NCBI GenBank assembly: GCA_017506865.1
Contig: JAFCMP010000334.1
Coordinates: forward strand, 1,116,001 to 1,180,000
Length of the DNA stretch: 64,000 nt
Reading direction: 5' to 3'
Origin: Tribonema minus
Lineage: Eukaryota > Sar > Xanthophyceae > Tribonematales > Tribonemataceae
How positions within the stretch are numbered: the first letter of the stretch is position 1; every line of letters begins with the position of its first letter. A model generated the notes under the pieces. It saw only the letters and a list, made by a program, of their open reading frames with translations, ran no database searches and had not been told where the DNA came from. Position numbers and translations under genes: made by a program. This document shows, in pieces, positions 18,157-62,253 of the stretch.

Positions 18157-21100
18157 ATGACGCCACCGCAAGTTCCAACGGCCGCCGTGGCAATGTCCCC
18201 AGACGACGACTTGTTCACGGAAGAAATGTGGCAGGACAGGGGGTGCAGGACCCTGCTGGAGACGTACGCCTTCCGCACAGCGCGCCTGGAGGGAGCAGCG
18301 GAGGAGCAGGAGCTGTGCGACTTTCTGGAGCGCTTCCTCAGAGCCAGGAGCGTCAAACAGCAGCAGCAGCAGCAGCGGCGGCAGCAGGGAGCCGCTGCGC
18401 TGCCGCCCCTGCCGCCGCCGCAGGCCCCCGAGCAGCAGCAGCAGCGGCGGCAGCAGCAGCAGCGCCCGCTGATCGACGCCGCGGCCGTGGAGCGCTCGCG
18501 CCACGCGCACCTGCTGCAGCACGCGCTCGTGCGCGCGCTGCTGCGGGCGGGCCCGCAGCGCGACCTTGAGCGCGCGCTGGCGCTGTTTGCGGCGTTCCGC
18601 GCACGGCAGCAGCGCGCGGCGGCGGCGCAGGTGGCGACGGACCGCGCGGCGCTGCCGATCGCCGACTACGAGGCGGCGATCGTGGACGCCGTCGGGCGCA
18701 ACCGGGTGACCATCGTCGCGGGGGAGACGGGCTGCGGGAAGAGCACGCAGGTGCGGCAGCGCTCGCCCGGCCTGGTTTAGTACAATTAGTACTTCTATGT
18801 ATGGAAACGAGTCAAACTATCGTAGAGCTCTATGTATGTTCACATGTGTAATACATCATATATGACCTAGTTCGCAGTACACGTAGAAAGTTATGTGTAT
18901 ACATTTATGAGTGGCTGCGCTAAGGTGTGCTGCTGTCATTGCGCATTGCCCGGTTGGCAACTTGCAGGGTGGTCAAGGCCGTTGTTGCACTGCGCAGTGC
19001 CATGTGGTGGGAGAAGCGGCTGTACCCCAGCAGCAGCAGCGCGCTGCCTGAAGGCGGGCCTGCCGCTCGCGGTTCATCATCATGTAGCGGCCTCGGGCGA
19101 ATGTTCAGCATCCCTTGTTGGTGTGCATGTGTAAGCTTTGAATCACTTGCCCATGTGAGCCATCCCCGCATCCGGACGCCAGCAGCAGTAACTTCAAGTG
19201 TGCACATCCGCGCCGCCGCCGCAGGTGCCACAGTTCCTGCTGCAGGCCGGCCACCGGCGCGTGGCGTGCACGCAGCCGCGCCGCCTGTCCGCGGTCAGCC
19301 TGTGCCGGCGCGTCTCGCAGGAGACGCAGGACAGGTACCACTTCAAGTTGAACTTGCAGTTTGTGACCTGCGAACCAGCGCGCTATCATGTGTGCCTGCG
19401 CAATTTGCTTGGCACGTAGTGCTGGGGCACGGCAGTGACGCGTAGTGACAGTGCGCATCGCCAGACGTGCAGGAGCTATTGGTGCTACGACGCTGTCGTG
19501 GGGTGTTGAGCGCTGCTGTCAGCGGCGCGCAGCAGAGCTCAGGCAGTCCGTGTGCACCGTCTGCCGCAGCGCACGCAGGCGACGCGCAGGCATGTGCCTG
19601 CATGCAGTTCCGTGTGCGCCTCTGTAGCACGCCTCTGTGAACACGCCACCCCTGCATAGGTCCGGTGCGCGCGCGCTGCGCACCGTTCATCTTCCCCTCG
19701 ACACCAGTCCAGTCGGCGGTTTCGTGCCGCCCGCCGCGGCCCTAGAGCTGAGCTGAGCCGCGCTGCCAATCAATTGAAACTTTCCCATCACAGTCGATGA
19801 ATTGAATGAGGCACGGGGTGACCCGTGCATGTCCGTGAGGGAACATGCCAGCGCATGACACATGCGCACGGCAGGCGTCAGCTGAGCGTTGCAGCGCACT
19901 TGCGCGCAGGCGCGGGCTCTACCGCACACACCATCACGTCACCGCTGGGACGCGGCGCGCGCGCGCGCGCGCGCGACCTCGCCGCGTCGATCCGACTTCA
20001 AGGCTGGCGAGCACAGCGCTCAGCCAACTCTATCTAACCCAGCGTGGCGATGCGAGTCGTCGCACCGCATCCACATGCTTCATGCATGTACTATACTTCA
20101 ACTTGAGCATGTTTAGACTACGCACACGCATTGTGCTGTACGTGTACGCACATCTAGTGCAGGTGCGGTCGCACCGCATCCACATGCCTCATGCACATGC
20201 TATACTTCACATTCTGCGTGTTTAGACTACGCACGCGCATTTTTACTGTACCTGCATGAACATTTCGGTGCAGGTACGGCGCCGGCGTGGGCTACAAGAT
20301 CCGCTTCGACGCGTCCGCGACGGCGGCGACGCGCATCGTCTTCCTCACAGAGGGCGTGCTGCTGCGCGAGCTGTCCGGGGACCCCGACCTGTCAGCTTAC
20401 GACATTGTCATCTGCGACGAGGTGCGCTGGCCACATGTACTGTAGGTATGAAGACGAATCCAAAGACGGTAGAGCTCTAGGTGGCAAGGGAGGGTGAGCC
20501 GCAAGTGCCTGCCAATGATGACCGTGGTGTGCAGCGTGTGCCCTGGCGCGACGCGGTCATCTCACATGCCACGCATGCGGTCCACGGCGGCGGGGCGCGG
20601 TTGACGCGGCGTGTACCCGTATGATGTGATAATTCGCGACGAGGTGCGGTTGCCATATGGAGTGTAGGCCGATTGCCGCAGCAGCGGCGACAACGGTTTC
20701 ATTGGCGGAAGGCATTCAGTTTGACGGCTGACCACGCGTTGTCACGTAGAGCTCTGCGGTCTTTTGTTTCGTTTCCTTGTAGTGTAGGTATGCAGCGTGT
20801 GCCCTGGCGCGACGCGGTCATCTCACATATCGAGCATGCGGGCCACGGCGGCGGGGGCGCAATGGCACGGTGTACCTGTATGTGTGGGGTATGTAGGTAT
20901 GGGCATGTAGCGCCTGCCTGCGGTGTACGTGCATCATGTATGCGTCATGGAATCGCGTGAGTACGGGTTACCGATGGTGTATGCATGCACAGGCGTGCAG
21001 CGGCTTGAACCTCAACTCTTCTCCCAACTGCTCTTGCCGCCCGCCACACTGCTCCGCGTTGCATGCCAAACTCTAACCCTAGTTTGTGTCAGCGGCCACA

Positions 21101-21803
21101 CCCTAACCCCACTTGCTGTCAACCGCGCAGGTCCACGAGCGCCACCTCACGTGCGACTTCATGCTGGGGCTGCTACGCGCGGCGCTGGCGCGGAGCGCTG
21201 ACCTCAAGCTGGTGCTCATGTCAGCCACCATCGACGCTCAGCTATTCAGGTCGCCAGAGTCTCATTGATAGTGCTAGTGCTGTACATATATACATATACT
21301 CAAGAATTCACAACTAGTGCTGGCCGTAAGCTGATTCTCATGTCCGCCAAATTTGATGCGCGGCTTTTCAGGTCGCCGCATTCGCCTTGATGCTACTTCT
21401 CCGTGTATGCTGTCAAAGCGTCACGCGCAGTGCCGAGCTCAAGCTGGTGCCCGTGTTTGCCATCATTGATACTCAGCCGTACAGGTCACCAAAACCTCAT
21501 TGTTAGTGTGAAGGAGTCGCATGCTCAGCTGTTCGGTCACTGCACCTGCCTTTTCTTTCAAACACTGTTGAGGAATGGATCCTCGAGATGGTGCTAGCCT
21601 TGTCTGCCACCATCGACGCTCAGCTACTCAGGTCACCACGCTTGCCTTGTTAGTGTGGAGGGATCGTGACGCGGCCCTGCTGAGAGTCCGTCTCCCACAG
21701 TCCCAACGGCGGAACCGGCCGTGCACGCATGGCGCGGCTGCGTCGATAACGCTGCGGAGCGCTGAGTCACCCCCCCCCCCCCCCCCCCTCGGCGGAAGCA
21801 CGC

Positions 21804-21835
<32 letters not shown>

Positions 21836-22283
21836 GCCTGCAGCGACTATTTCGGCGGCGCGCCAACGGTGCGCGTCCCGGGCCGCACGTACCAGGTCGA
21901 CGTCGAGTACTTCGGCGGCGCGCTCGCGCGGCACGTGGCGCCGCCGCCGCCGCCGCCGCTGCTGCCGCCGCCGCCGCCTGGCGCCGCCGCCGCCGCGCTC
22001 GTGGCGCCACCGCAGCAGCAGCAGCGGCAGCGGCGGCGCGCACCATTCGACGCGCGGCCGTTCGCGCGCCTGCTGGCGCACATCGACGCGACCGTCGCCG
22101 CGGAGGAGCGCGGCGACCTCCTCGTCTTCCTCAGCGGCATGAGCGACATGCTCGCGGTGCGCGACGCCGCGCGTGCGTACGCGGAGCAGACGCAGCAGGA
22201 CGGCGGCGGCGGCGGCGGCGGCACTGGACCTCGCAGCAGCGGCGCCGCCGCCGCTACTGGCGGGGCGCGAGACGGCGGCGGCA

Positions 22284-22338
<55 letters not shown>

Positions 22339-25300
22339 GCGCTGGATCGTCCTGCTGCTGCACGGCAGCCTGGAGGCGGAGGAGCAGGACCGCGCGTTCG
22401 CGCGCGCGCCGCCGGGCGCGCGCAAGTGCATCCTCGCCACCAATGTCGCCGAGTCGGCGGTGACAATAGAGGGCGTGCGCTTCGTGGCGGACTCGGGGCG
22501 CGCCAAGGAGATGACGTGGGACGCGCGCGGCGGCGGCGTGCGGCGCCTGCGCGAGGGGTGGATCAGCCGCGCGAGCGCAGAGCAGCGGCGCGGTGCGTCG
22601 CCGCCTGGTGCTTGAAGTATTCCATGTTGAAGTTGATGTGTAAGCTACCGAGTCACGTGCGTGAAGCGCGTGGCGGCGGCGGCGTGCGGCGCCTGCGCGA
22701 GGGGTGGATCAGCCGCGCGAGCGCGGAGCAGCGGCGCGGTGCGTCGCCGCCGCCAGTTGACAATTTCAAGGTGTTGTAGGAGTCACCGGCTCCGCAAAGG
22801 AACTGTTGGGGCGTGCACACCTGTCCGCGCGGTGTAGGTAGGTAGCTGCGGCTGTCTAAGATGTACGCGAGACACACCACCTCGGGCAGCGGCGGAGGCG
22901 GCCTTGCGCGCCTCTCCTGCTGGCCAATCATACGTCCTGAACCGGCACGCGACAGTGTACTTCACTGCGTGATGGGCGGCTTGGTGCCGCCACGGTCAGT
23001 TAGCACGGCTGCTGTGTCATGACCAAGTCCCCGGTGCCAAAGTGCCCGGGGAGGACCACGCTTTGCCGACGAGCAATGCGATTGCTGATTGCTCGACCCA
23101 TTGTGCAGAGCGCCAGTGCGCCTGCCTCTGCTGCTGGTGCCCCTGCTGCCGCCGCCGCTGGCGCTGGTGCCACTGCTGCTGCCGCTGCGGTTTCGCCGCC
23201 TCTGGCACTTCTTGTTGGCCTAGCGCTGCGTCGAGTTGAGTCAATTCGCGCCAGTCTGCCCAAGAAGTACTGACTGTGGCTTACTCTTACATATGTGCGT
23301 GTGCTGTTGCCGAGCGCTGCCGCAGGGCGCGCGGGGCGCACCGGCCCCGGCATCTGCTACCGCATGTACCCGGAGGCGGTGCTGGACGCGCTCGCGCCGC
23401 ATGCCGCGCCGGAGGTCACGCGCGTGCCGCTGGAGGGCGTGCTGCTGCAGGTGAGGGGTAGGTATAGGGCCTGTAGGGTAAGGGTACGCGCTGGCCGCGC
23501 TCGCGCCGCACGCCGCGCCGGAGGTCACGCGCGTGCCGCTGGAGGGCGTGCTGCTGCAGGTGAGGGGTATAAAGTTTAAACGCAGTGTAATACATCAACC
23601 TTCAGTGCACTTGAGGTACACCACGTATAAGGCATGCGCGGGAGGTGCGGCGCCACGCGCCGTGACGGAGGGCGTGCTGCTGCAGGGCGTGCTGCGTTTG
23701 TATAGCCTTCGAAGACGCATGTATAGACTTTGAAGTACGCTGCCGTACACGCGAATGAGGACAGGCATGTGCCCAAGGCGCTGGCTGGAGGTGACGCGCG
23801 TGTCGCTGGAAGGCGCGTGCTGCTGCAAGCGAAGGGGTGGGTTTTGCTGAAGCTATGCGTGCGGTATGCAATGCATCATGCAGGTACAGGGGGCTGCTGC
23901 AGGTGAGGGGTAGGTATGAGGGTACACCTGTAGGGTACGCTTATGCATCTTGTGTGTACCTTATGCTGGCGTTGGCGTGGCGCATGGGGTGACACTGCGC
24001 AAGGCGTGCCGCAGCGGGACGCGCATGTATGCTTCCACGCACCATTCCCCAACTGCAGTCGACGCCGTGCTTCAAACGCCGAGAGTGTAACCCTAACCCT
24101 AACCCAATATTTGGTGTGCATATGGGTAAGGCCGGGCGTATGCGAACGCAGGCATATGTGTATGGCCAGTGGCAGGCTCGAGGCGGGGACTGTGAAGGAG
24201 GGGTAGCGTTAGGCTTAGGGTTAGGGTTGGAGTTAGGGCTAGGGCTAGGATTAGGGTTTGGTCAGGATTAGGGTTAGGGCTAGGGTTAGATGGAAACTCG
24301 CGCAGCCGTTGACGCACACCGCACCCCTGCGGCGCGCTGCAACACGGGGTTACAATTAGCACCAGCGCCATGGTTAGGGGTAGGGTTAGGGGTCGCCGGA
24401 AGGCGCGTGCTGCTGCAAGCGAAGGGGTGGGTTTTGCTGAAGCTATGCGTGCGGTATGCAATGCATCATGCAGGTACAGGGGGCTGCTGCAGGTGAGGGG
24501 TAGGTATGAGGGTACACCTGTAGGGTACGCTTATGCATCTTGTGTGTACCTTATGCTGGCGTTGGCGTGGCGCATGGGGTGACACTACGCAAGGCGTGCC
24601 GCAGCGGGACGCGCATGTATGCTTCCACGCACCATTCCCCAACTGCAGTCGACGCCGTGCTTCAAACGCCGAGAGTGTAACCCTAACCCTAACCCAATAT
24701 TTGGTGTGCATATGGGTAAGGCCGGGCGTATGCGAACGCAGGCATATGTGTATGGCCAGTGGCAGGCTCGAGGCGGGGACTGTGAAGGAGGGGTAGCGTT
24801 AGGCTTAGGGTTAGGGTTGGAGTTAGGGCTAGGGCTAGGATTAGGGTTTGGTCAGGATTAAGGTTAGGGCTAGGGTTAGATGGAAACTCGCGCAGCCGTT
24901 GACGCACACCGCACCCCTGCGGCGCGCTGCAACACGGGGTTACGATTAGCACCAGCGCCATGGTTAGGGGTAGGGTTAGAGGTAGCGCAGGAACGGACAT
25001 CACGCTGCTGCTGCCGTGTGCGATCGTCCATTGCAGAGGCCCATTTGGGCTGCCAGTGAGCAGCGCTGACAGTGCTCAGAGGTCGCGTGTGGATCGGACT
25101 CTGACCCTAACCCCACTTGAAGTATAACCTACTGATTTTGGGCATGGCTGCACAGCCTACGACCAGTTTAAGGGTCTCAAAAACAGGCACTAAATAGCTG
25201 TCGAGAGCTGTCGAGAGAGTCAATCAGTTTGATCTCTCGCAGACTCCGATGACACCCACAAGACTAGTACAGCAGCAATAGCTGCGCTCTAACCTCCAGT

Positions 25301-26866
25301 CCGTCCTATGCTCATAGCCTCCAGCGTTCAGCCGTGCACCGTGCCGCTGCTGCGCTGCGCCGCAGGCCAAGTCGCTGGGGCTGCGCGACGCGCGCGCCTT
25401 CCCCTTCCTCACCGCCCCCCCCACCGCCCACGTCGCCGCCGCCATCGGCGCGCTGCACGACCTGGGCGCCCTCAGCGCCGATGCTGCCGCCAGCGCTGCT
25501 GCCGCCGGTGCCGCCGCTGCCGCTGCTGCTGCTGCTGCCAGCACCGCTGCTGCCGCCGCAGCTGCCAGCCCAAGCGGGGCGACGGACGGCGCCAGCCCAG
25601 CCACCGCCGCGCCTGACGCCGCTGCTGCCGCCGCCGCCGCCGCTGCTACCGCGGCAGCAGCGGCGGCGGCAGCGGCAGCAGCGCAGGCGCCGCTGACGCC
25701 GCTCGGCCGCGCCCTTGCGCGCCTCCCCGTGGAGCCGACCGTCGGCAAGGTTCTGGTGCTGGGCGAGGCGCTCGGCGTCGCGGACGGCGCGCGGCTGCTC
25801 GCGGCAGCGCTCGCCGTGGCGTCGCCCTTCGAGGGGAAGGACAGGGGGGGGGCGGGGGGAGGGGGGGGAGGGGGGGGCGGCGGGGAGTTTGTGAGCGCGC
25901 ACGGCGACCCTTTCGCTATCGCCGATGCGTACCGAGCGTGGCTGGCGGTGAAGGCGGCGCGCCGCGAGAGCAGCCGGCGCTGGTGCCAGCGGCGCGGCAT
26001 CAAGGAGCAGCGCCTGTACGAGATCAGCAAGCAGGTGTCCACGCGTTCGCGGGGTCGAGTACTCGGGGCAGACGCACACATGCCAGGGTCTGTGTGTGTG
26101 TGCGCATGCAGGCTTTTGGTGGGGGGGGGGGCGGCCGGTCGTCGCGCGAGCCGCGCAGCTGCTCGAGCGCGCCGCTGGTGCTGGCGATTCGGGGCTTGCG
26201 CGCAGGACGAATTCGCGCCGGCCCTCAGCACAATGAAGTTTGTGAAGAGCCGACTGCAGCGCTGATGCTCGCGTCCGCCAGCAGCAGGAGAAGTAGTGGT
26301 GGTGCCGCCTGTGGCGCTGGCGCAGGCGCAGACGGCGCGCCGCCGCCGCCGCCCGCGTGCCCGCGCCTGCCGCCAGCCATGGCCCACGACGCCAGCTTCC
26401 ACCACCGCGCCGTGTCACGCGTGCGATAAACGCATGCGCGCCTTCCCTCCCCCCCCCCTACGCACTATGTAGCAATGGCCACGAGGCCCTCAGTCCTCCT
26501 CTGCGTGTCGACCTCCCACACCGCAGGTGCAGCAGTTCACGCACCTGCTGCGCGACCTGGCGGCGGTGCACAGCGGTGGCGGCGCGGCGGCGGCAGCGCA
26601 TGACGCGGAGGCGCCGCCGCCGCTGCTGGGCGACGACGCGCGGCCGCAGCAGCAGCAGCTGTCGCGGCGGCGGCTGCGGCAGCTGCGCGCGGCGCAGGAG
26701 CTCGCCGTCGCGACGCTCACCCTGGATGAGGACGGCTCGGGCGGCGATGCCTCCGGTGAGCATCAAACGCAGGACTGTGGTTGTGAAGGGGGGGTGCTGT
26801 GCAGGGGCATGGGGGGCGGGGGGGGCGCTGTGGTGATGTGCGGTTTTCCACGAGGCGGAGTTGGGG

Positions 26867-26903: not shown

Positions 26904-28461
26904 GGGGGGGGGGGTTAAAAGCAAAAACCTGTACAGCTGATGTCATTTGAGAGATATCGTAGCAGCATGGGCGTGTCAATGCTGTCGCAGGCTGTGACGT
27001 TCCACACTTGGCGCGCACAGTGCTCCCACCCACAGGCATCGCGACGGTCAATGCCGGTGGTGCACGGGAGCTGAGGTCGGGGCCGCTGTTGGAGTGCATA
27101 CCAGCATACCCTCTGGACAGGTCACAGGGCAGTGAGCGGGGTCGGTCAGCAGTTGAGGAGAAGGGAGCTGAGTCAGGGCAGTGATTGGGGCTGCACGCTG
27201 CTACGCTGCCGCAGCTGAGCACTGATGCTGAACACACGGTCAGGGCTGGGGCAACGGCTCTGCTGAGCGCGGCGAGTCCTTCTACCATAGGGCTACGGTT
27301 GGGTTAGGGATTAGGGAGTTTCAGCAAAGACGTGCTGTACTCCACGCAGCATGCCCTTGCGCCCTCTGCTTGCTCGTGCCGCACGGGGAATCCTTGCAGT
27401 CGCCACCTTGCTCCGTGGGGGCACGCAGCGGGGGCTGCAGCTCCCGGCGCTAGGGTTGCCGTCAGGGTTCGTCAGGATCCGGGCCTGTCCCTCAGTGGTG
27501 GGGTCGGGATATTTGGCGGCGACTGGCCGGTTTCCATACGCAGCGGCCTCAGCACGTACGGCCTTAGGACGTACGGCCTTGAGCTTGCCGCCGCCCAGCG
27601 CCCGCCTCCGCGCAGCGCGTGCGCTCAGCGACGATGACCGCGCTCGTCATCGCCGCCGCCGCCGCCGCCGCTGCAATGCGAGCCCGCCGTGGCAGCGTCG
27701 CCGCCCGAACGCTCCCCTACAGGCGCGCACGCGTGCTCGACGACAATCAAATTGCTCCTTGCTGCCGCCGCCGCCGCTGCCTCGACATGCATGCAGACGG
27801 CGAAGGCGCGGCGGCCGCGCTGCAGTTGCGGCGCGAGCTCACAGCGGACGCGCGCCGCGGCGGCGGCGGCGGCGGCGGCAGCGGCAGCGGCGGTCGCCAC
27901 CGCGTCGACGTCAACAGCCTCGAGTTCTATGCGCGGCAGGGCGGCGGGGCGCTGCATGCGGCGGCGGCGCGCGCCGCGCCGGGCGCCGCAGAAGTCGCGC
28001 TGCTGCAGGCGGTGCTGGCGGCGGGCCTGTACCCGAACGTTGCGCTGCCGGCGGTGGACGGCGGTAGTGGCGGCGGCGCGCTCTCTGACCAGCAGTACGT
28101 CACGCGCGGCATGTCGTCGGAGCTGTACCTGTCTGCGGACTCCGTGCTCGGCGCCATTGACAACAGGCGAGCGCGCTGAGCGCTGCTGCTGCTGCCGCCG
28201 CTGCCGCCGCCGCCGCTGCTGCTGCTGCTGCTGCCGTGCACGAGTCCTTGAAGTGTCACACTCGAGGCACGTGATGCGAAGCGCGCCAGATGCACAGCGG
28301 CGGTTCCTCGGGGCACTCACTGCTTGCAGCGCACTAGCCTCAAACTGAGAACTGCCTGGTACTTTTCACACTGGTATGTGAGATTATCGTAGCGGTGGTT
28401 GTAGAATGGTTCCTTGTGCATTGCCGTCCAGACGAGCACTGCATACGCACCCCCCCCCCTC

Positions 28462-53600: not shown

Positions 53601-56295
53601 AATGGTGCACACGTTGATGCTCAGCAATCTGTGTGCCCGGATGTTGTAGATGCAACGCATCTCGGCACCTGCACCCTGCGTTTATCGACAACACCTCACC
53701 GCACAAATGCGCCAATGACGATGCTCACCGACGACAGCCGTGAGCTGCTGCAATGCTCAGCGTGGTGCTCAATGGCGCCCTCGCCCCGTCTGTCACCCAG
53801 CCCCCACACACCATTCTCATGCACGTCTCAGCTTCTGCTTCGCTGCTGCATTGACTTTGTTCGGTGTACATCGCACCCTGCCGACTAGTCTGAACGCTTG
53901 CTGGTTCACCCAGGCTCAGTGTCTAAACGCGGAGCCTGACCTTGACCTGCACACGAGTGACCGGCGTTGCTGCCCCTCGGTGCACTGCGTAGCCGCAGAC
54001 AGATCAACAAGCCCCGCGGCTGCTGCGCAGTTGGCGCTCTGCGCGAGGGCAGCTGGGACGTCACACTTGAAGTTCCCGTTTTGAACCTGCGGTGCCTTTT
54101 CAGCACCACTCAAAGCGCAGAAGAACCGAGGCGCCGCTACGCAGCTGCACTCACGCGTGCACACTCTTGTCAGCAGCTGAAGAGCTAACGGCGGCCGCAC
54201 CCTCCCCCCCGCCCGCGCTCCGTGTTGCTTGCAGAGGGTCGTCTTCCTGCTCCTCAGCTCCGTGTACCACACCAGGTGAGCTGCGCGCCGCAGTGCCCTC
54301 AGAGGGCCGCCATCTTGGGGGTTTGGAGCAGGGTTAGGCAGATCAGCGTAGGGTTAGGGGCACTGCTGTGTGTCCAACGATGACGTCCACGGCCACTTGT
54401 GCTGTGCTGCTGCATCAGTGCATGACTTAGGGTCACTTGCTGCTCCTCAGCTCCGTGCACCACACCAGGCGAGCAAGCTGCGCGCCGGGCTGCAGTGCTT
54501 AGACGGCCGCTATCTTGGGGGGGTTAGGGGTAGGGTCAGGGTTGGACGCATCAGGGTCAGGGTTAGGGTTAGGGGTATCTTCTGCTCCTCAGCTTTGTGT
54601 ACCTCACCAGGTGAACTGCTTAGACGGCCACCGCCTTGGGCGGTTAGGGTCAGGGTTCAGGTCAGGCATGTCAGGGTTAGGGTGAGTGTTGCTGCCGTTC
54701 CTCAGTGTGCCACACCAGGTGAGCAATGCCCTGCGCACGACCCTAACCCAAAGCTAACCCAAAGCTAACCCTAAGCTGCTCGGGGCCGGCTGGGCGCGTC
54801 GGGCTGCAGTACTCACGTGGCCGCCAATCTCACGGGTACAGCCAATGTGCGGGTGAGGCACATCAGGAAACGGGTTATGGTTATGGTAACCCTAACCCTA
54901 GCCCGCAGCGTCCCACCCCGGTGTGCATGACGCTTCTGCCAGGGGCGCACGTATGCCCGCTGAGCACTGTGCAGCGCGTCAGTGCTCCCTCCGCACACCG
55001 CGCAAGTGCGACCGCGCGCTGCGCGCACTCCCGCCGCGCACACGGTGCACGAATCCATCCCCACGCAGTCACTGCATTCGATGTGCAAGGGCGCTCTGCA
55101 GTCGGCGTCGCGGACTCAGGACTCGCCGACGCTGGACGCGTTTCCCGCGCGCCGCTGCGCACAGCCGTCCGCGCTGTGACGCATGCGCGCACGAGTGCCC
55201 GTCGCGTTGTGCGCCGATTGACATCGCGCGTGCCGGCCGCGCGTGTGGTTGCGCGCGCCAACGCTGGACGACCGAGTCGTACGTCGAGTCGAGTCGAGTC
55301 GCAGTCGCAGAGCCGTGACGCTGCTGAGGACTCGCGCGCGGACTCTCTGCCGGAGCGCCGACTGCGGTGCCCGGTGAGGATTACGGTCAGGGTCGAGGTT
55401 AGGGTTGCGAACGTCGTGATCGCGCCCGCATTGATGACCGCGCAACGAGCGAGGCGCCGCTCGTGCAGCTGCCCCTCGGCAAGGCTACCAGGCGGCACAC
55501 GTCTCGTGATCAGAGGGTGCGCAAGTTCACTCCCCCGCCATCGTCCCGGCCGATATCATCTGCCGGCTGCAGCTGTCCCGCTGCAGTTGCAGGAGCCGCC
55601 GCCGCTAACGCGCAATCCACGCAGAGGCGCGGGCACCATGGGGGACCGTGCAATTGCTGTGACAGCGCTCAACACACAGTCGCAACAGCGTTGAACGCGG
55701 TCCGTTGCGGTAGCACCGCCCATGTGCGCCGCGCCCCGCTGTTGAATCTGAGCCACCACCCGCAGACACCATCACTGAGACTCACGGCTCTTGATTCAAT
55801 GCCCCTGTGGCGAGTGCTGCGACGCGGTTCTCTGCGCTCTGATGCCGCAGGCGTGAGGAGCACTGCCCCGTCCCTCTTTCATTTTGCTGGTACGCTCACT
55901 GCGCCGCGCCAGCACCCTAATTGGACTCTCCATCGACTCACACGCCGTCCACCGCAGAATACTCCATGACTCACCACTCACCTCACACGAGTCACAGCAA
56001 ACAGGCCGCTGAACATCACCGTTGACAGACACATATCACCCCCCCCCCCCCCACGCGCAGGCTCGGCCACTACAGCCACCCCCTGTCCTTCCGGCGCTAC
56101 TTCGAGAGCCGCGCGGCGCGGCGCGCGGCGGCGCAGTTTCGCGCCGACCTCGCGCGCATCGGTCGCGACATCGACGCGCGCAACGCCGCGCTCGTGGACG
56201 CGTGGGTAGAAGCGGGAAAGCCGCGCAAGGAGGCAGCGCTCTGGCGCTACCTGCACCTGCACCCCGACAAGATCCCGCAGAGCATCAACATCTAG
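38625..56295 (+). CDS. LOX: Lipoxygenase with N-terminal signal peptide
   Basis: Twelve exons in phase: 38625-38786, 41084-41248, 42126-42500, 44812-44951, 45967-46153, 46913-47038, 48656-48916, 50699-50800, 52140-52309, 52898-53102, 54235-54275, 56061-56295; about 722 residues. Lipoxygenases insert dioxygen into polyunsaturated fatty acids. Iron ligands are all present: His392 and His397 in YHQGFTHLGRTH, His582 and Asn586 in AQHGAVNFPQ, and the C-terminal Ile722 (PQSINI). Family landmarks include FAWYRLAGPNPN, HPLHRLLMPH and FPYRDDAMKVWEAIKTWV. There is no PLAT domain, as in cyanobacterial-type enzymes. Exon 1 encodes a hydrophobic signal (MLTATIMALSVAWASG), pointing to the secretory route or, less likely, the plastid. 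Exon 3 holds an Ala-rich insertion (about 42220-42420). Coding is ~2.2 kb in 17.7 kb; introns are full of exon-edge copies. Positional specificity is not assignable. Confidence 0.93.
39141..39345 (-). repeat. Dispersed repeat, copy 3, lipoxygenase intron 1
   Basis: Full-length copy in reverse orientation, about 205 bp. Read on the minus strand it starts GAGACCTTTCCA, passes GCTTGCACACAGAAGTC and GTTTGACTCGTGGCCA, and ends CTTGATTCGTTTCCAT. The left ~50 bp are shared only with copy 4. Confidence 0.88.
40733..41083 (+). repeat. 117-bp tandem array: exon 2 start echoes plus CCCTAA tracts
   Basis: Three 117-bp units precede lipoxygenase exon 2. Each has a CCTCAG acceptor, a copy of the exon start (NANLVARAKGLVKK or a variant) and then a CCCTAA-rich tract ending CTGATCTTACCCTTGTGG. 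The AAGAAGCCT landmark recurs at exactly 117-bp spacing (40771, 40888, 41005, then the real exon). Because 117 is 39 codons the reading frame stays open through the array. The second and third units are almost identical; the first is more diverged. Confidence 0.95.
41310..41890 (+). repeat. Three echoes of lipoxygenase exon 2 end
   Basis: Copies of the exon 2 end (VKALQAAFFFK, donor AAG|GTGATTGTTG at 41249) lie at about 41315-41360, 41425-41475 and 41845-41895. The second keeps an exact AAG|GTGATTGTTGG boundary; the first reads AAGCTGATTGTTG, losing the GT. Confidence 0.85.
42055..42120 (+). repeat. Echo of lipoxygenase exon 3 start, then C run
   Basis: CATCAGATCGGCTGGCTCTTC at 42065-42084 is an exact copy of the acceptor and first codons of exon 3 (42120-42140). 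The two copies are separated by a C run (about 42085-42108) that doubles as the polypyrimidine tract of the true acceptor. Confidence 0.93.
42630..42800 (+). repeat. Two echoes of lipoxygenase exon 3 end plus donor
   Basis: The exon 3 end (YAALFGTLKRPDA, donor GCG|GTGAGC at 42501) recurs at about 42634-42683 with an intact GTGAGC donor, and at about 42748-42795 in more decayed form (GCGAGGTCGCCC). Both are followed by ACTTCAA...GAAGTATGGTC sequence. Confidence 0.9.
43550..44690 (+). repeat. Echoes of lipoxygenase exon 4 start, including a 141-bp array
   Basis: Five copies of the acceptor plus exon start (GCAG|ATGTCAATTGAGGGG, codons MSIEGLSDDAFA) precede exon 4 at 44812. Two are decayed (about 43555 and 43680). 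Three, with GCAG at 44311, 44452 and 44593, form an array with an exact 141-bp period (47 codons) and near-identical sequence, leaving a 119-codon open frame 44291-44650. All three keep the CTCCGCAG acceptor. Confidence 0.93.
44698..44740. repeat. TA-rich microsatellite
   Basis: A TATATATATATA run with flanking ACTATATAAGTAT words in lipoxygenase intron 3, just upstream of the exon 4 acceptor. Confidence 0.9.
45010..45170 (+). repeat. Two echoes of lipoxygenase exon 4 end plus donor
   Basis: GGGGCAGGCCAAGTA...ACAGCGCTCAG|GTGAGC (44925-44957) is repeated at about 45017-45055 and, shortened, at 45117-45145. Both keep a GTGAGC donor and the following intron sequence, which is itself repetitive (CTGTGTACTGTACTGCTGAACT). 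Confidence 0.88.
45548..45825 (+). repeat. Two echoes of lipoxygenase exon 5 start
   Basis: Copies of the acceptor and exon 5 start (RAELERLQAAGELFAVDYTVLSG, from 45967) occur at about 45548-45625 and 45758-45822. The second retains GCGGTGGACTACACAGTGCTCAG. CCCTAA-like tracts separate the copies. Confidence 0.9.
46170..46300 (+). repeat. Echo of lipoxygenase exon 5 end plus donor
   Basis: GATCGCGCTGTTTCTTGC, the GC-rich middle and GTGCTTGTTCGGGTGCGTG repeat 46081-46165, the exon 5 end with donor CAG|GTGCGTG. The AG at the boundary is now GG, so the copied donor is weakened. Confidence 0.8.
47085..47560 (+). repeat. Exon 6 end echo and left copy of an intron 6 duplication
   Basis: 47090-47120 repeats the exon 6 end (GCCAAGACGTGCCTGCAG|GTG). 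From about 47119 to 47400 the sequence (GGGGGCATCGCTTGTGCGCTT, GCTCGAGGGGCGAA, CACGCCGCACCGGCAGCGAG) is repeated at 48286-48550 with moderate divergence. Confidence 0.85.
48286..48560 (+). repeat. Right copy of the intron 6 duplication
   Basis: Matches 47119-47400 over about 260 bp, including GCTCGAGGGGCGAAGAAGCCTG and CACGCCGCACCGGCAGCGAG, offset about 1.17 kb. It ends shortly before the C-rich tract (48580-48655) that precedes exon 7. Confidence 0.88.
49030..49225 (+). repeat. Two echoes of lipoxygenase exon 7 end plus donor
   Basis: 49037-49118 repeats GTGGACATCCTGCTCGCGCC through GACGTCAGCGCG|GTGCGTGC (source 48850-48925) almost exactly, and 49166-49222 repeats the last ~55 bp with a GACGTCATCGCG|GTGCGTGC boundary. 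Both keep intact donors. Confidence 0.93.
49777..49977 (+). repeat. Dispersed repeat, copy 4, lipoxygenase intron 7
   Basis: About 200 bp, forward orientation, GAGACCTTTCC to TAATTCGTTCTCAT, with the same internal landmarks as copies 1-3. It sits between exon 7 echoes and exon 8 echoes. Confidence 0.88.
49985..50600 (+). repeat. Echoes of lipoxygenase exon 8 start
   Basis: CTGTCYGCCGCCCGCAG|TGGAAGAGCCGCGACTGG, the acceptor and first codons of exon 8 (50680-50720), recurs at 50117-50158 and 50553-50592 almost exactly and at about 49990-50012 in decayed form. Each is followed by a similar CAGTTATACATGC...GACAGGGCC tail. Confidence 0.92.
50875..51310 (+). repeat. Four echoes of lipoxygenase exon 8 end plus donor
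   Basis: Copies of GAGTTCCCNCACATGTTCCCCTACAG...GACGCCATGAAG|GTGAAG (source 50755-50806) lie at about 50879-50925, 50985-51033, 51148-51190 and 51255-51305. Three keep a GTGAAG donor; the last reads ATGAAAATGAAAATG and has lost it. Confidence 0.92.
51551..51636. repeat. Head-to-head TTAGGG/CCCTAA array
   Basis: TTAGGG repeats run into CCCTAA repeats at about 51573, with a second small inversion (CTTAAGGTTAA) before further CCCTAA repeats. It lies inside lipoxygenase intron 8. A head-to-head arrangement is the signature expected of telomere-sequence fusion or palindromic insertion. Confidence 0.95.
52360..52430 (+). repeat. Echo of lipoxygenase exon 9 end plus donor
   Basis: CGTCAAGTGGCTCGCCGAGGCGTGGGGG, then CAAGGGGCACAACAAGTGAGTCGCTC, repeats 52264-52320 nearly exactly, about 100 bp downstream of the real donor and with the donor intact. 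Confidence 0.95.
52585..52805 (+). repeat. Two echoes of lipoxygenase exon 10 start
   Basis: 52724-52800 repeats CACCTCGTGTCGACCGTCATCTTCACGGCG through GTCAACTTCCC exactly over about 65 bp (source 52912-52973), including the catalytic His and Asn codons. A more decayed copy is at 52590-52650 (TCTTCACGGCCTTCGCGCAGCGCAGCGCCGT). Confidence 0.93.
53175..53310 (+). repeat. Echoes of lipoxygenase exon 10 end plus donor
   Basis: 53258-53310 repeats CTGGACGTGCTGGCGCTAATGGAGAT...AACTGCAG|GTACGTACGT (source 53067-53112). A more decayed copy is at about 53185-53215 (GCTGGCGCTCGATGGACGTGCAGGTACGGC). Both keep a GTACG donor. Confidence 0.88.
54310..54905 (+). repeat. Echoes of lipoxygenase exon 11 and telomere-like tracts
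   Basis: The 41-bp exon 11 end (CTGCTCCTCAGCTCCGTGTACCACACCAG|GTGAGC) recurs at about 54440-54475, 54584-54615 and 54690-54725. The copies alternate with degenerate TTAGGG/GGTCAGGGT tracts and a repeated AGACGGCCGC...CTTGGG motif, making an array with a period of roughly 110-190 bp. CCCTAA-type sequence follows at 54740-54775. Confidence 0.88.
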
Positions 56296-58066
56296 GGAGG
56301 GGCGGCGTTTGAGGCGTTTGCGGCGGCGGCGGCGGCGGCAGTGTTATGAGCGCTGCTGCGGAGCGTCGACATGCGGGAGAAGCGCCCGTGGCGGCAGTGG
56401 CGGCGGCGGCGGCAGCAGCGGCGGCGGCATCAGTGGCTGCTGCGGTGGTGGCGGCGGAGGCAGCGACTGCAGCAGCAGAAGCGCGCTGCCCGGCGGCGAC
56501 ACTCTTCTTGTAGACAAGGATGGCGGGAGGTGCAGAGCGCACTGTTTGCTTGGGTTTCAGCAAGCCCAGGGGTATTTGTGTTCTCGACGAAGAGAAACCT
56601 GGACGAAGATACACCGACTTATGCGACTACAGAGTCTGCGGCACGGGGGCCTGATGAGAGGGGGGAGGGGGGCTTTGCCGCAGCAGTCACAATTCTCAGC
56701 TGCACCACCTGCACGCCCCCCCCCCCCCCCCCGCCCCCATGCCTTTTCAGTACATCACCAGGTGCCAAGGGCACTCGACACGCGGGAGGCGGCGGTTCGC
56801 GCCTCACTGTAAGCTTTTATGCATAGTTGTAGGGCGAGGTTCCAGATTTACACCAGAGAGCGCAGAGCCCTGCATGTGGCAGCGCTCCGCTCCTGGATGC
56901 CGCAGCGGTACAGCCCTTTTCTCCACGTGCCCCCTTCCCCGCCCCCCCCCCCCACGCGCAGCAAAAGCTGCTGCCCCCCCCACCTTTTTGAAGCAGCCCA
57001 GTGACAGCGAGGCTGGCCACACTGCTCATCCCATAGGTAAGTATGTATCTAGAGCCATGTTCAGGTATGCCACATCAGGGTCTACAGCTCAGCACAAATA
57101 CGCACACTTTCGCCGGAGCTCCACTTCTCATTTCACCAACCAGTGTTTGCTGCTGTTAATCATGACACTGCAGCAACTTGCACGTGATTGTGTTTGACAG
57201 TGTGATCGGTCTATGCCGTGTGCAGTCATCAGAACGCATCACCAAATGCCAGGCTCGAATGACAATGTGAGTGTAGATGGCGACAGGCAAAGCTTTAGGG
57301 TTAGGGTTACCCAGGGTTTAGGGTTGCCCTAACCCTAATCCTAAAGGCCATTGCACACTGAGCAGCGCTGCGACGCAACGCCAGCTGGCGGGTGCAACTC
57401 CGCATGATGCCCTTACCAGCAGCGTCTGAGTTGCTACCTAGTAGGTGCTGCAGGTGTGTCTCTTGTGCGAGACTGGTCGGGGTGACGTGCCTGCTCTGTG
57501 CCGGTGGAGGCGTCCACCACAGCCGTTTCTTGATCCCTGCTGCTCGAGGCCACATGCTCAGTGCGCACCTGCTCAGTGCGCGATCACGTGGCGCCTCTTG
57601 CGCTCGTCTCGGACCGGCTGGGTACGCTTTTGAGGTGTGCTTCAAGCCGCCTGCGGAAGCTGGGCGAGCCTCCCTGTGCTGGCCACAGTCGTTTTGTTGA
57701 GCACTGAGGGCTTTCGCATACATATATACCTACGCATTATGAAGTGCGCCATGTCGCAATGGCCCGCGCAAGCTCACGGCGCGCGGACGGCGGGCGGTGC
57801 GTGCGGCGCGTTTGACGTCGCGCGTGCACAGCAGAAGCGGAGGCGCGCATGGACAGCGCAGAGGTATGGCATGCGGGCGCATTACGAGCTATCAGTGCTC
57901 AGCGAACGCAGCAGGCAGAGAGGACAGCGCACGCGACGCGACGGCACACTCACGCATCCGCACATTTTATTTGGGGGACGGACAGCAGGGGGGGGGGGAC
58001 AAAAAAACTACATGCACACAGAGAGGCGCACGGCACGCCCGGGGAGGGGGCGCGCACGCGCGCGCG
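56296..58066. other. Intergenic between convergent lipoxygenase and syntaxin genes
   Basis: No supported gene. GGC/GCA codon-like runs (56320-56480), a C run at 56711-56732, another at 56940-56953, and a head-to-head TTAGGG/CCCTAA cluster at 57295-57345. Both flanking genes end here. Confidence 0.45.
57295..57345. repeat. Second head-to-head TTAGGG/CCCTAA cluster
   Basis: TTAGGGTTAGGGTTAC...TTTAGGGTTGCCCTAACCCTAATCCTAA: telomere-like repeats in both orientations within 50 bp, outside any gene. Confidence 0.9.
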
Positions 58067-61000
58067 CTACTTGCCCGCCTTGAAAACGATGATAATGATG
58101 ATGATGACGGCGATGACGGCCATGATGATGCCTATCATGCAGCACTGCCGCTTGCGCACTTGCTTGGCCTTGGCGATGGCGTCCTGGGAAGGGGGGGGGG
58201 GGGGGGCACAGGGGCGGAGAGGATGAGAAATTGCAACTGCCACACACGCCATTCGATCATGCGCCCACCAGGGCACGAGCCAAATGCATAAACGATTAGA
58301 GCAGTGCGCACTGCTGAAAGAGTTCTGAATCACGGCGAGCATTGCTGCCGGCTGCACAAGCAGCGGGCGATGGAACGCGCCTGGTCCAACCCTAACCCTA
58401 ACCCTAACCCTAACCCCTACCCCGATTGGCGGAGCGCCCCTGGCAGCGACGCTGAGCCAGCTGTGACAATATACTTGAAGTACGACATGTGCGGACGCTG
58501 TGCGTGGCAGGAACTGCAAGAGCGTTGCATGGACGCGCGCTTGCTGAGGGACATGCTCTAACGGGGGCAGGTATGCATCCTCAGGAATGGGTTTGGATTA
58601 GGATCAGGGCAGAACGCAGCGCGCGTAGCTCCCATGTACGTCGTGCGTGGCCAGCTACAATGGACTCCGGAGCGCGTGCAAATCGTACGAGGTCCCTTCG
58701 CACGCACGCGCGCATGCACGCACGCACGCAGGCACGCACGCACGCACACGCAACTTGCGCGACCGCGCAACGCACGCCGCATGGCGCAACACCCGCGCCG
58801 CGACGGGCCCCCATAGCCATTGCCATCGACGCTGCAGTGGTCCACATTGAGCAGCAGCACTCAGCAGCAGCGCTCAGCACTGAATCGAGCAACGCCTCGC
58901 ACGCTGCGACCGAATGCGGCTTCACGGCCCACATGGCGCTCGCAGGCAAACTTCCTCGTCATCTGTGCAGATCCACTTGAAGTCACGGCGTACCTCCAGG
59001 CTGACGTTCCCTTGCCGCACGTAGTCCCCGGCTTGTTTGACCTGCCGCGTCGCGACAGCAGCGGACACGCGGCGTAGCAGTGCAGGACGAGCGAATAAGC
59101 AGAGGCGAGGGGGTTATGGCTCAACCCCGACCATAGCTGGGACCGCAAGACTAGCTGTAAGCCTAGCTATTGGAGCACATGGCATGGCAGCTACGCGCTG
59201 ATTGCCGGTGGCACACTGGACGGTTACGGCAGTTAAACCTCCGCTGGACAGACTACAGATACATTCACCTCTAGCAGCACATGACTGGCGTCGGTTCTTC
59301 TGTTGCGTTGGTCACCTCGACGTCTGCCTCTGGTGGTAGGCTATCGTCGCTACATTGCCTGCCCTGGGGGATGTGAGCGCCACAGAACATGCCAATCTTC
59401 AACTTCAAGTTATCACAGCAGCAGCAGGCCCAGAGCGTTGACGCTACACATGTAGCTGATATAAAAACTTCATGCGACCACGTGGCAGACAGGCGGCGCC
59501 CGCGATGTGAAGTAGTGTAATGAAGTGTACGGCGTTGAAGCCGCGCATGCATACAAGGCCAGACACCCAGGCACGTCAAGCGCCCCGCCCCCTGCGGCTC
59601 CCGTAAGCCTCAGCATATATATATATATATATATATAACATGTACACGCAAAACTCAATGCCAACGAGCATCTCCCCCTGCTGCTCCACCGGAAGCGTCA
59701 GGTCCATCAGCACGCGGTGACGTCCCTAATCCTGAGGTCAGGGTGGTTCCCCCCCAACCGCAGCGCGCCAGATACGCAGTAGCATTACGCCTCTCTTTAC
59801 AGAATACTAAAACTCAATTGGCGTCAAGTTGAAGTTCACCTGGAACTCGATGACGTCGAGCGTCTCGCCCTGCTGCTCCACCAGCAGCGCGAGGTCCATG
59901 AACATGCGGTGCAGCTCCAGGATGCTCGCCTCGAGGCGCCGCACGTCTTCGTACTGGTCCTGGACCTCCGCCAGCACTGCGCGCGCGGACGGAGGAAGGG
60001 GGCGCGTGCATCGCCGTCAGTCGCGCGCTTCAAATCGCGGGCAGATCACGCGCTTTACCAGTGAACAGTGCTGGCAGACTTGTCCCTGACGTGTGTTAGG
60101 GACGCCTGTACAACATTATCTATTGGGCCCGTCCATGCCAGCACTGCGTGCGCAGGGGGACAGGGGGCGCGCATTGCCGTCAGTCTTGAGACCAGAGCAG
60201 GTCCTAACCCTAACCCTAAGCCTAACCCTAATCCTAAGATCGTGCAACCCTAGTCCTAACCAGTATACATACCGTTGGCCTCCTCCATCGGGTCGCCGCC
60301 CTGCTGCATGATGGCCGTCGTGATGACGCGCCAGCTAACGCTAACCCTAACCGTGACCGTGACTTTGACCGCAACCTAGACTCTAGCCCTAGTCCTAACT
60401 CTGAATGCAATGCATACCGTTGGCCGCCCTAACCCTAACCTTACTTCTCTAACACACAGTATACATACCGTTGGCCACCTCGGCTGGAACGCCGCTCTGC
60501 TGCATGACGGCCGCCTCGAGCACGCGGCACCTGACCCTAACCCTGATCGTGGCCGTAACCCTAATCCTACCCTAGCCCAAACCCTGAATCTAACCCTAAC
60601 GACAACACATACCATTGGCCACCTCCACGGGGTCGCTGCTCTGCTGCATGACGGCCGCCTCGAGCACGCGCTTGACGCCCTCGTCCTGCTGTCGCCTCGC
60701 CGTAACCCTTACCTCACTTCTCTAACCCAACTTCTAATTGAAGCCCAAATTGTTACCCCCAAGCAGGATACATACCGTTGGCCACCTCGACCGGATCGCC
60801 GCTCTGCTGCATGACGGCCGCCTCGAGCACGCGCTTGACGCCGTCGTCCTGCTGGAAGACTGCCGCCATCTCGTCCTCCGTGACGGTCGGCTTGACGGCC
60901 TTGACGGCGCGCTCCGCCTTGCCCTTCACCTGCGACTTGTACCGGTTTTGCTTGTTCTGCGGTGGGGAGGCGGGGGGGGGGAGAAGCCCGGGGAAGGGGG

Positions 61001-62253
61001 GGGGGGGGGGGGGTGTCATCAGCGGGGGGGTTGGTCAGAGCCGGGGTGTCAGGCGTGATGTTGATTGGGGCGCGCGCGCACGCACGTGCGCTTCTGATGT
61101 CGTTCATTTACTGCCGTTGACCGTGTACCGCCTCTGCTCGCGCTGCAAGAGAGCACGTCCATGGGCGCGGGACAGAGAGCTGCATAGGACATGCCACCCG
61201 TGCTGTTGATTGCACTCTGGCCAAGGGTACAGAATGGTCTCGGCGCAGTCACCCCAACCCTGATTCTTACCCTAGCCCTAACCCACCTCACGCTCCTAAG
61301 CCACCTAACCTTGACTCCAACTCCCACCCTTGCCCTAACCCACACCTCAACCGTTCACCCCTGCGGAGGTGAGTAGTGGGAAGATGAGCAAATATGAACC
61401 CCCTTGCCTGTGCATAACCTCCCCCCCCTCCCTTCCCTCTCCAAGCGTTGTTCCAAGCGAGAGGCGCAGTGTGCGCACTCGAAACTGAAAGGCGCTCGCG
61501 AACTTGAAAGAGGACGCCTTGTACACCCTGGTTTCAGCCGTCGTCGCTTGCAGAACGCGTGACATCGCAGCGGGTGCGGAGCGCGCTGATTAACTGGGCG
61601 GACACTAGCCGCAATAGCCGACATCAGCGCGCGCATATGCATACCTCCATACCTGGCACTCCTTGGCGACATTGACGAACTTGCGCGTGAACGTCGTCTC
61701 AAGGTTTGCGCGCACGCGGATGTTGCCGTTGGTGCTGCGCTTCGGTTCGCACATGCATACCTACATACCTGATACTCCTTGGCGACGTCGACGAACTTGC
61801 GCGCGAACGTCGTCTCGAGGTTCGCGCGCACGCGGATGTTGGCGTTGGTGCTGCGCTTGGGGTCGCATATGCATACCTACATACCTGGTACTCCTTGGCA
61901 CACACCTGATACTCCTTGGCGACGTTGACGAACTTGCGTGAACGTCGTCTCAAGGTTCGCGCGCACGCGTATGTTGGCGTTGGTGCTGCGCCTGGCGTCG
62001 CATACGCATACCTACATACCCGTTACTCCTTGGCACGCACCTGATACTCCTTGGCGACGTCGACGAACTTGCGCGTGAAGGTCGTCTCGAGGTTGGCGCG
62101 CACGCGGATGTTGGCGTTGGTGCTGCGCTTGGGGTCGCGCTTGAGCGCCGCCGTCTCCGTGCGCAGGTCGTGCAGCAGCGTCTTGGCGTGCGAGACGTGC
62201 TTGTTCGTCTTGGCCAGGACCTCGGTGATCTTGTCCTTGGCGGTCTCGCCGCC
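58067..62253 (-). CDS. Qa-SNARE (syntaxin-like), 5' end not found
   Basis: Five exons on the minus strand, in phase: 62041-62253, 60776-60956, 59840-59976, 58994-59041, 58067-58183. The first recognised exon (GGETAKDKITEVLAKTNK...RKFVDVAKEYQ) covers the end of the Habc bundle, so at least one upstream exon is missing. The SNARE motif spans exons 3-5: LEASILELHRMFMDLALLVE, then QQGETLDVIEFQ with the zero-layer Gln, then VKQAGDYVRQGNVSLE. The last exon gives a dibasic/Cys juxtamembrane segment (RKRQCC) and an Ile-rich tail anchor (MIGIIMAVIAVIIIIIIVF) ending KAGK. Such t-SNAREs drive membrane fusion, typically at the plasma membrane for this sequence type. Introns are GT-AG; those after the first and second exons are packed with exon-edge copies. 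The 48-bp fourth exon is very small but fits the heptad phase exactly. Confidence 0.92.
58387..58418 (+). repeat. CCCTAA tract in syntaxin intron
   Basis: About five perfect CCCTAA units in the last intron of the syntaxin gene; on the gene's own strand this reads TTAGGG. Confidence 0.95.
58690..58752. repeat. CGCACGCA-type microsatellite
   Basis: Imperfect ACGC/GCAC repeats in the last syntaxin intron. Confidence 0.85.
59605..59745 (-). repeat. AT microsatellite and echo of syntaxin SNARE exon
   Basis: An AT run at 59611-59637 precedes a decayed minus-strand copy of the exon at 59840-59976: VLMDLTLPVEQQGEMLVGIE at about 59660-59720, matching FMDLALLVEQQGETLDVIE. It lies downstream of the true exon on the gene's strand. 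Confidence 0.8.
60120..60190 (-). repeat. Echo of acceptor region of syntaxin SNARE exon
   Basis: CCAGCACTGCGTGCGCAGGGGG...GGGGGCGCGCATTGCCGTCAGTC resembles 59971-60020, the acceptor and adjoining intron of the exon at 59840-59976. It lies upstream of that acceptor on the gene's strand. Confidence 0.65.
60190..60720 (-). repeat. Echoes of syntaxin exon 60776-60956 end, with CCCTAA tracts
   Basis: The exon end plus donor (plus strand CATACCGTTGGCCACCTCGACCGG...CTGCATGACGGCCGCCTCGAGCACGCGC, 60771-60840) is repeated at about 60263-60335, 60465-60526 and 60608-60680, with a short fragment at 60413-60427. The third keeps nearly 80 bp including TTGACGCC. Copies alternate with CCCTAA-type sequence, giving a period of 140-200 bp. 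All copies keep the GTATG donor on the gene's strand. Confidence 0.93.
61240..61365. repeat. Degenerate CCCTAA-like tract
   Basis: Loose CCCTAACCC and CTAACCCACCTCA-type repeats in a syntaxin intron, more decayed than those at 60190-60720. Confidence 0.75.
61645..62040 (-). repeat. Three echoes of syntaxin exon 62041-62253 end plus donor
   Basis: The plus-strand block CATACCTGATACTCCTTGGCGACGTCGACGAACTTGCGCG...CGCGCACGCGGATGTTGGCGTTGGTGCTGCGC occurs at about 61641-61745, 61757-61867 and 61875-61997 before the true exon edge at 62041. The copies encode VRANLETTFTRKFVDVAKEYQ with few changes. The spacing is about 113-170 bp. Confidence 0.95.

Follow-up and report, generated by a model that had tools for sequence, protein, structure and literature searches.

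Copies of exon edges within introns at a Tribonema minus locus and their probable origin in tandem duplications across splice junctions

Genes and exon-edge copies at the locus

The window considered here, a stretch of 64,000 nucleotides of Tribonema minus (contig JAFCMP010000334.1, positions 1,116,001 to 1,180,000; GC content 61%), is part of a genome assembly of 158 Mb in 554 contigs. It harbors genes for a DEAH/DEAD-type helicase, a lipoxygenase and a syntaxin, whose introns contain copies of the edges of their own exons. We refer to a copy of a neighbouring exon edge together with its splice site inside an intron as an echo. A gene for a light-harvesting protein (LHC) serves as the negative case.

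The exon models of the first three genes were rebuilt by hand. The helicase gene (plus strand) consists of 10 exons (18158-18750, 19225-19334, 20274-20421, 21131-21249, 21844-22592, 23326-23450, 25366-26034, 26527-26755, 27797-28166 and 28569-29696) that form one open frame across all joins; its first 355 amino acids match Pfam DEAD (1.8e-7), and exon 9 apparently ends in a GC donor at 28166. In the downstream part of the lipoxygenase gene (plus strand) 11 exons were found (41084-41248, 42126-42500, 44812-44951, 45967-46153, 46913-47038, 48656-48916, 50699-50800, 52140-52309, 52898-53102, 54235-54275 and 56061-56295), with one open frame to the stop and a match to Pfam Lipoxygenase (1.6e-48). 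The syntaxin gene (minus strand) consists of five exons (about 62253-62041, 60956-60776, 59976-59840, 59041-58994 and 58183-58067), likewise with one open frame to the stop, and is recognized by a gene finder as well as by Pfam Syntaxin (4.7e-7). The LHC gene lies on the minus strand at 15067-17633; the best matches of its protein among solved structures are fucoxanthin chlorophyll a/c-binding proteins (1.3e-55), which makes a red-type plastid most likely.

We scanned 26 introns, 23 in the three genes and 3 in the LHC gene, at both edges (52 edges). Each probe consists of up to 60 exon bases and 30 intron bases and was aligned against the rest of its own intron, with a local score threshold of 40. 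The scan yields 45 copies, 35 of an exon end with its donor and 10 of an acceptor with the exon start. They are found at 22 of the 46 edges of the three genes (22 of 52 when LHC is included), and by our own tally one or more copies are present in 17 of the 23 introns (helicase 4/9, lipoxygenase 10/10, syntaxin 3/4). An earlier sequence-only reading of the window had counted more than 35 copies at about 20 junctions, in most introns of these genes and in none of the LHC gene. We confirm the observation, and neither edge of the 3 LHC introns has an echo.

In the helicase gene, the end and donor of exon 4 are followed by three echoes (21316-21391, 21425-21508 and 21581-21638; identity 0.74, 0.76 and 0.84), those of exon 5 by one near-identical echo (22679-22751; identity 0.99) behind a 67-bp spacer, and those of exon 6 by five (23500-23569, 23654-23686, 23784-23842, 23893-23937 and 24483-24527; identity 0.83-0.99). 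A 590-bp tandem duplication in intron 6 (23802-24401 and 24392-24993, 98.7% identity) took an older echo along, and the last of the five is found in its second copy. An exon-end and donor match in intron 3 (20636-20668, score 41, 8 exon and 25 intron bases) is weak and doubtful; it adjoins a dispersed repeat and is lost under later settings, which count three helicase donors, not four. An adjacent tandem pair with a 109-bp period across the acceptor of exon 3 (20059-20279), including about 6 exon bases, falls below the score threshold and is not counted as an echo.

The lipoxygenase gene holds donor echoes in every intron: intron 1 (41319-41374, 41430-41470, 41821-41876), intron 2 (42630-42679, 42735-42793), intron 3 (45016-45077, 45116-45163), intron 4 (46224-46301), intron 5 (47093-47128), intron 6 (49048-49114, 49170-49222), intron 7 (50876-50947, 50980-51033, 51254-51304), intron 8 (52368-52442), intron 9 (53252-53306) and intron 10 (54429-54487 and 54578-54619, with telomere-like repeats in between). 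Acceptor echoes are found in intron 1 (42047-42086), intron 2 (43655-43716, 44305-44351, 44446-44493, 44587-44634), intron 3 (45548-45603, 45755-45803), intron 6 (50111-50158, 50539-50587) and intron 8 (52697-52784). All were identified by edge alignment; identity is 0.79-0.96 in intron 2 and 0.92-0.97 in intron 6, and the three echoes of intron 7 all begin at the same exon base. A 117-bp tandem array of 3.5 copies (40719-41129), which comprises the acceptor and start of the first exon found and has telomere-type repeats within its units, is not counted, as the exon upstream of it is not part of the model. Intron 5 also contains a 270-bp repeat (47112-47375 and 48274-48543, 82% identical, 1162 bp apart) with apparently no tie to an exon edge. 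On the minus strand, the syntaxin gene has donor echoes in intron 1 (61876-61963, 61767-61828, 61651-61712; identity 0.89-0.95), intron 2 (60607-60672, 60457-60526, 60255-60331; identity 0.82-0.94) and, by edge alignment, intron 3 (59652-59707).

Shuffled probes give no match in 1040 comparisons, and reverse-complement probes match in 1 of 52. Probes from other introns, compared among the window genes, give 3 matches in 1300 comparisons; these represent two probe-intron pairs, each inside one gene, and two of the matches stem from a 41-bp exon whose edges overlap. A repeat outside the echoes is found for 25 of 246 interior tiles, which by eye comprise about three families as well as intron parts of echo units. 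The presence of echoes in the three genes is thereby confirmed.

Echoes in a wider genome sample

The wider sample consists of the window and 27 further stretches of the same genome, 24 of which yielded usable models, giving 31 gene models in total. The sample is not random: 20 stretches are centred on DEAD-helicase matches, two on chaperonin matches, and five were chosen systematically. Genes were predicted by a small gene finder, for which genes of the window served as the first training set and its own predictions as the second; predicted exons copying a neighbour's edge were removed. Its agreement with the helicase, lipoxygenase and syntaxin exons is not independent, as these are the training set; the LHC exons, outside that set, were recovered. 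After retraining, one syntaxin exon is missed and one helicase exon shortened. Pfam agrees with all 4 fetched gene models tested, of 27 (two DEAD helicases and two chaperonins), while model L020 carries frame errors. Excluded from all counts are models with fewer than 3 exons or fewer than 400 coding bases, introns below 100 bp, exon edges below 40 bp, matches of low complexity, and predicted exons that are short and similar to a neighbour.

Echoes occur at 96 of 305 edges (60 of 149 donors, 36 of 156 acceptors) and in 78 of 178 introns, that is, in about two in five introns of this non-random sample. Three of the five systematic stretches gave models with at least 3 exons; of their edges, 4 of 17 donors and 2 of 17 acceptors have echoes, a lower rate than in the sample as a whole. 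Of 160 kb of intron sequence, 8.1% is recognisable copy and 19.8% echo territory, hence the sequence-only description of introns built from such copies is right as to their presence and too strong as to their extent.

The pattern is also visible independently of gene models. Three Pfam tables list 226 exon matches, and among these we looked for short ones falling within the profile range covered by an adjacent exon. Seven were found (C5, C51 twice, C135, C246, C511 and C479), each of them on the side where an echo is expected, that is, with the intact exon outermost. An eighth nested pair consists of two echoes of one C51 exon. The gene finder itself calls echoes as short extra exons, for example at 22667-22738, 23524-23559 and 49074-49212.

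Probable tandem origin and orientation of the copies

Local repeat pairs in the 31 gene regions are almost exclusively direct (307 direct, 6 inverted), the orientation expected of intronic tandem-repeat arrays. The step between successive donor copies has a median of 127 bp (5th to 95th percentile, 74-268 bp), and homology between the spacers of successive donor copies is seen in 74 of 110 pairs, where the null is 5%. The duplicated unit therefore usually includes intron sequence, which points to tandem duplication across the junction, as the sequence-only reading had proposed. We note, as a correction to an earlier description, that near-identical copies may have spacers between them.

Copies on the wrong side of an exon edge were found in none of 53 cases in either of two counts. 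Together with the nested Pfam matches this bears out the directional placement described earlier. The pattern is real, yet it requires no new mechanism: the spare copy of a donor-spanning tandem duplication ends up in the intron, and the outer junction is maintained by selection, so that geometry and selection suffice. The lower number of acceptor copies fits the idea that a spare upstream acceptor may be more readily misused. We conclude that the interpretation of echoes as relics of local tandem duplications spanning splice junctions is supported by the arrangement of the repeats.

Decay of the copies

The identity between exon and echo is graded (0.70-1.00). Differences amount to 8.0, 7.1 and 15.4% at codon positions 1, 2 and 3, respectively (233/2915, 208/2933 and 450/2923), and to 8.5, 7.6 and 16.9% in the hand-annotated genes alone. 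The ratio of 1:1:2 is the one expected if the exon is free only at third positions and the echo drifts everywhere; the coding constraint that mutually exclusive or otherwise alternative duplicated exons retain is not seen in the copies. The donor GT is retained in 104 of 116 fully aligned echoes (4 more are partly aligned and 10 unaligned at this site) and in 83 of 92 under a stricter rule, compared with 85.5% expected from a drift of 7.5% per site (P 0.12 under both rules). Echoes thus decay as unconstrained DNA does.

Excess at exon edges

What still needs explanation is the pile-up of copies at exon edges as compared to intron interiors. We used a uniform measure, in which a 70-bp tile is scored by its best match in the adjoining 260 bp at score 40. 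A match is found for 35.1% of exon ends against the following intron (n=114) and for 16.5% of exon starts against the preceding intron (n=121). The corresponding values are 2.5% (n=643, echo-free introns) and 2.0% (n=350) for intron interiors, 2.0% (n=540) for intergenic sequence, and 4.1% (n=49) within exons at a distance of 90-160 bp from the donor. The excess is about 14-fold for exon ends and 7-fold for exon starts; the sequence-only reading had named copies no commoner at exon edges than elsewhere as speaking against it, and the genome sample shows them to be commoner. At the 99% null level, the rates are 46.5% and 26.4% at edges versus 6.8%, 9.1% and 5.7% in the background, and the excess falls to about 7- and 4-fold. 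A cruder measure, comparing tiles with the whole intron, finds a match for 58 of 230 edges and for 94 of 1118 tiles, a 3-fold excess; many of these matching tiles probably contain exons that were missed or belong to the intron part of echo units.

In terms of repeat families, 84 are junction-crossing, 14 touch an exon but do not cross its boundary, and 46, for the same reason an upper bound, are interior, compared with a junction share of 15.5% expected under uniform placement. Among families whose best pair has at least 90% identity, 17 cross a junction, 7 touch an exon and 3 are interior. Families with at least 3 copies account for 48 of 97 at junctions or exon edges versus 6 of 46 in the interior. 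Intron-only sequence beside echo-less donors is only slightly enriched (5/100). By a rough estimate, about 1.5-fold of the excess could be due to pairs diverging more slowly if one of their members is constrained. A proneness of GC-rich exons to duplication was considered and rejected: there is no clear GC trend in non-coding tiles or at edges, and in the highest bins 3 of 43 intron tiles (GC 0.70 or more) and 0 of 7 edges have a match.

Origin of the excess

The exon part of an echo is better preserved than its spacer. Between exon and echo the identities are 0.865 and 0.711, with the exon part higher in 66 of 79 pairs, and between echoes 0.82 and 0.688 (59 of 74 pairs), at a null identity of 0.59-0.61; this comparison is biased in that echoes were detected by their exon part. 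A neutral simulation without refreshing, evaluated with the same type of search, gives a spacer identity of 0.872 where the exon identity is at least 0.95, with 2% of pairs at or below 0.65; its indel rates are guessed and it covers donors only. By our own tally, the 23 observed first pairs with an exon identity of at least 0.95, five acceptor pairs included, have a mean spacer identity of 0.725, and 6 of the 23 are at or below 0.65. Two helicase copies (at 22679 and 23500), for example, are almost perfect, unlike their spacers. Simple adjacent tandem duplication as the sole account is therefore rejected, both because the spacers of copies with 97-99% identity are unrelated or have diverged strongly and because the first pairs fall outside the neutral simulation.

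The gap between exon part and spacer could reflect conversion from the exon edge, arrival of copies without spacer, or faster mutation of the spacer. We favour conversion, since it also explains the prevalence of at least 3 copies in junction families and why arrays with a constrained member would outlast others. Our account as a whole, which we consider about evenly balanced between right and wrong, is one of decaying junction-spanning tandem duplications, with the fixed exon edge providing a lasting seed of homology at which they pile up. First, an exon end with donor and intron start, or the mirror image at an acceptor, is duplicated directly, with a unit of typically 100-300 bp; such duplication is seen for most copies but not for all. 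Second, the duplication would be tolerated, with the outer junction still joining the intact exon and the spare copy being spliced away; geometry and selection suggest this step and the wrong-side control is consistent with it. A duplication inside an exon would, by the same reasoning, be purged. Third, as the codon-position pattern shows, the spare copy and its splice site decay without constraint. Finally, the exon edge, fixed by selection, would provide one unchanging member of the array, and through homology to it the echoes would be re-duplicated and refreshed by unequal exchange and gene conversion, while repeats wholly within introns would drift apart and disappear. Such feedback would explain the multiplication of copies at edges as well as an exon-like part that is more alike than the spacer.

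Several observations weigh against this account. When first-copy duplications are dated by their spacers, 16 of 149 donors (own tally) reach a spacer score of at least 40, compared with 2-2.5% of interior tiles; donors are thus several-fold enriched by spacers alone, and a higher birth rate of duplications at edges is possible. Fast change of the spacers could stem from sequence-dependent mutability rather than from conversion. In 36 of the 110 donor pairs the spacers show no homology above the null, which fits a copying of the edge only. The echo rate varies strongly among genes (chi-square 86.3, 30 d.f.), which the feedback step does not predict, and how large the edge excess is varies with the measure used. 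The acceptor AG is retained in 52 of 55 echoes (P 0.03; strict rule 47 of 49, P 0.02), somewhat above expectation; this is a hint, and a mis-chosen copy taken as the real one would inflate it.

The main rival to feedback from a fixed edge is a mutational process targeted to junctions, in which something linked to transcription or splicing (R-loops, paused polymerase, splicing-coupled breaks or RNA-templated repair) favours junction-crossing duplications without any feedback. The height of the edge rates over both interior and intergenic sequence argues for it, as do the persistence of the excess among families of at least 90% identity and the failure of base composition to explain it. The slight enrichment beside echo-less donors further suggests that crossing the junction counts more than nearness to it. 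Yet there is broad overlap in unit size between junction and interior families, suggesting one type of event, no breakpoint signature was found (breakpoints were not studied systematically), and the LHC gene, which is presumably highly transcribed, lacks echoes. We regard such targeting as possible, if rather unlikely.

We attach a still smaller chance to templated insertion of the edge only, whereby breaks in introns are repaired by copying the nearby exon edge, so that the spacer is not homologous. It would account for the spacer pairs without homology and for cases in which the copy is near-identical but its spacer has diverged strongly or is unrelated (22527-22605, with a copy at 22673-22751, and 23381-23460, with one at 23490-23569). 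The majority of homologous spacers argues against it, as does the common exon-side boundary of the copies in some arrays, such as lipoxygenase intron 7. Random templates should moreover include exon stretches 90-160 bp from the edge, whose match rate is low.

That echoes are retained for a function, as decoys, alternative exon edges or splice-site reserves, appears improbable. The frequent GT, a mean donor score of 5.19 that is near the 5.89 of real donors (n=93), and the AG excess would be in line with such a role. However, GT retention does not differ from the neutral expectation, and the codon-position pattern is that of copies free of coding constraint. The suggestion of the sequence-only reading that the copies act as decoys, alternative edges or buffers hence finds little support. 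Least probable is an artefact of assembly or gene finder: the copies are known here from assembly sequence, and the gene finder, being trained on window genes and its own output, is cleaned in a way that turns short neighbour-like exons into counted echoes, but the hand-annotated genes alone show echoes at 22 of 52 edges, divergence is graded and depends on codon position, unlike that of duplicated reads, and the seven model-free Pfam matches all obey the side rule.

Other repeats

Telomere-type (TTAGGG) 9-mers form 88 blocks in 156 kb of intron (2 in one shuffle) and 12 in 75 kb of intergenic sequence, with none in 52 kb of exon. Blocks are located, for example, at 51549-51590 and 57294-57338 of the window, at 7643-7672 of L024 and at 2421-2461 of L030. 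Where blocks lie on opposite strands, 5 of 6 neighbours have the G-strand followed by the C-strand, resembling fused chromosome ends. In donor-echo territory the G-strand sense prevails by 24 to 4, the blocks not being independent. Telomerase-linked break repair was rejected as a source of echoes, as per intron these repeats are not associated with them: echo and echo-free introns carry them in 11 of 57 and 9 of 62 cases within the first 500 bp (Fisher p 0.62) and in 5 of 32 and 17 of 86 within the last 500 bp (p 0.79), with p 0.16 and 0.35 for 300-bp windows.

A dispersed family of about 80-220 bp, found on both strands and resembling a mobile element, occurs at 2654-2793, 8228-8398, 20447-20528, 20667-20782, 39145-39364 and 49754-49976. 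An 86-bp tandem duplication at 4369-4540, in a minus-strand open frame with ankyrin repeats, may be another exon-edge case.

Relation to known systems and significance

The creation of introns by tandem duplication is well documented (PMC4974935, PMC3443670, PMC2891723, including Hellsten 2011 and Gao & Lynch 2009 as cited there), and the potato case among these reports involves duplication of an upstream intron-exon structure. The duplication touches exon and splice signal in both situations, but there a new intron arises, whereas here an existing intron lengthens. Intron birth of the type described by Rogers was rejected as an explanation: at score 40, the signature of that model, an intron end similar to the end of the upstream exon and an intron start similar to the start of the downstream one, is found in 0 of 119 and 1 of 122 cases, respectively, versus 44 of 119 and 21 of 122 for the near side.

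In Chlamydomonas and Volvox, intronic tandem repeats are significantly enriched near intron ends; the abundant motif in algal introns is the dinucleotide GT/AC, and regulatory roles have been proposed (PMC3887541). The likeness lies in algal intron tandem repeats near junctions; units with exon edge and splice site are not described in the consulted part of that study. The lineage is also a different one, the LHC protein of the present genome matching fucoxanthin chlorophyll proteins. In GC content and CCCTAA telomere-type repeats the genome may be likened to that of the haptophyte Phaeocystis globosa (64.6% GC; PMC11347835). Human genes in segmental duplications have variable internal tandem repeats over exon-intron boundaries, the copies of which are kept or spliced out (PMC2812944); in its consulted part, that report covers 27 intron modifications among recent paralogues and describes no genome-wide pile-up at edges. 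Introners change intron content en masse by copying themselves into many genes (PMC9860276). Echoes, in contrast, match their own exon edge, and among the window genes no sequence common to introns of unrelated genes was found. A limited literature search, covering titles and abstract openings of the papers listed, gave no description of boundary-spanning echo arrays.

A splicing- or transcription-coupled process that creates small tandem duplications specifically across junctions, and would make exon edges a driver of intron lengthening throughout the genome in this lineage, is a tentative and on the whole doubtful prospect. In practical terms, echoes are called as exons by the gene finder, hence annotations of the present and related genomes may hold false exons. 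The growth of introns is hard to observe directly, and here the growth events can be read: each echo represents a duplication with a built-in clock, a constrained exon edge beside a free copy. Echoes thereby make it testable whether duplications are born preferentially at splice junctions or merely persist there through the fixed exon copy.

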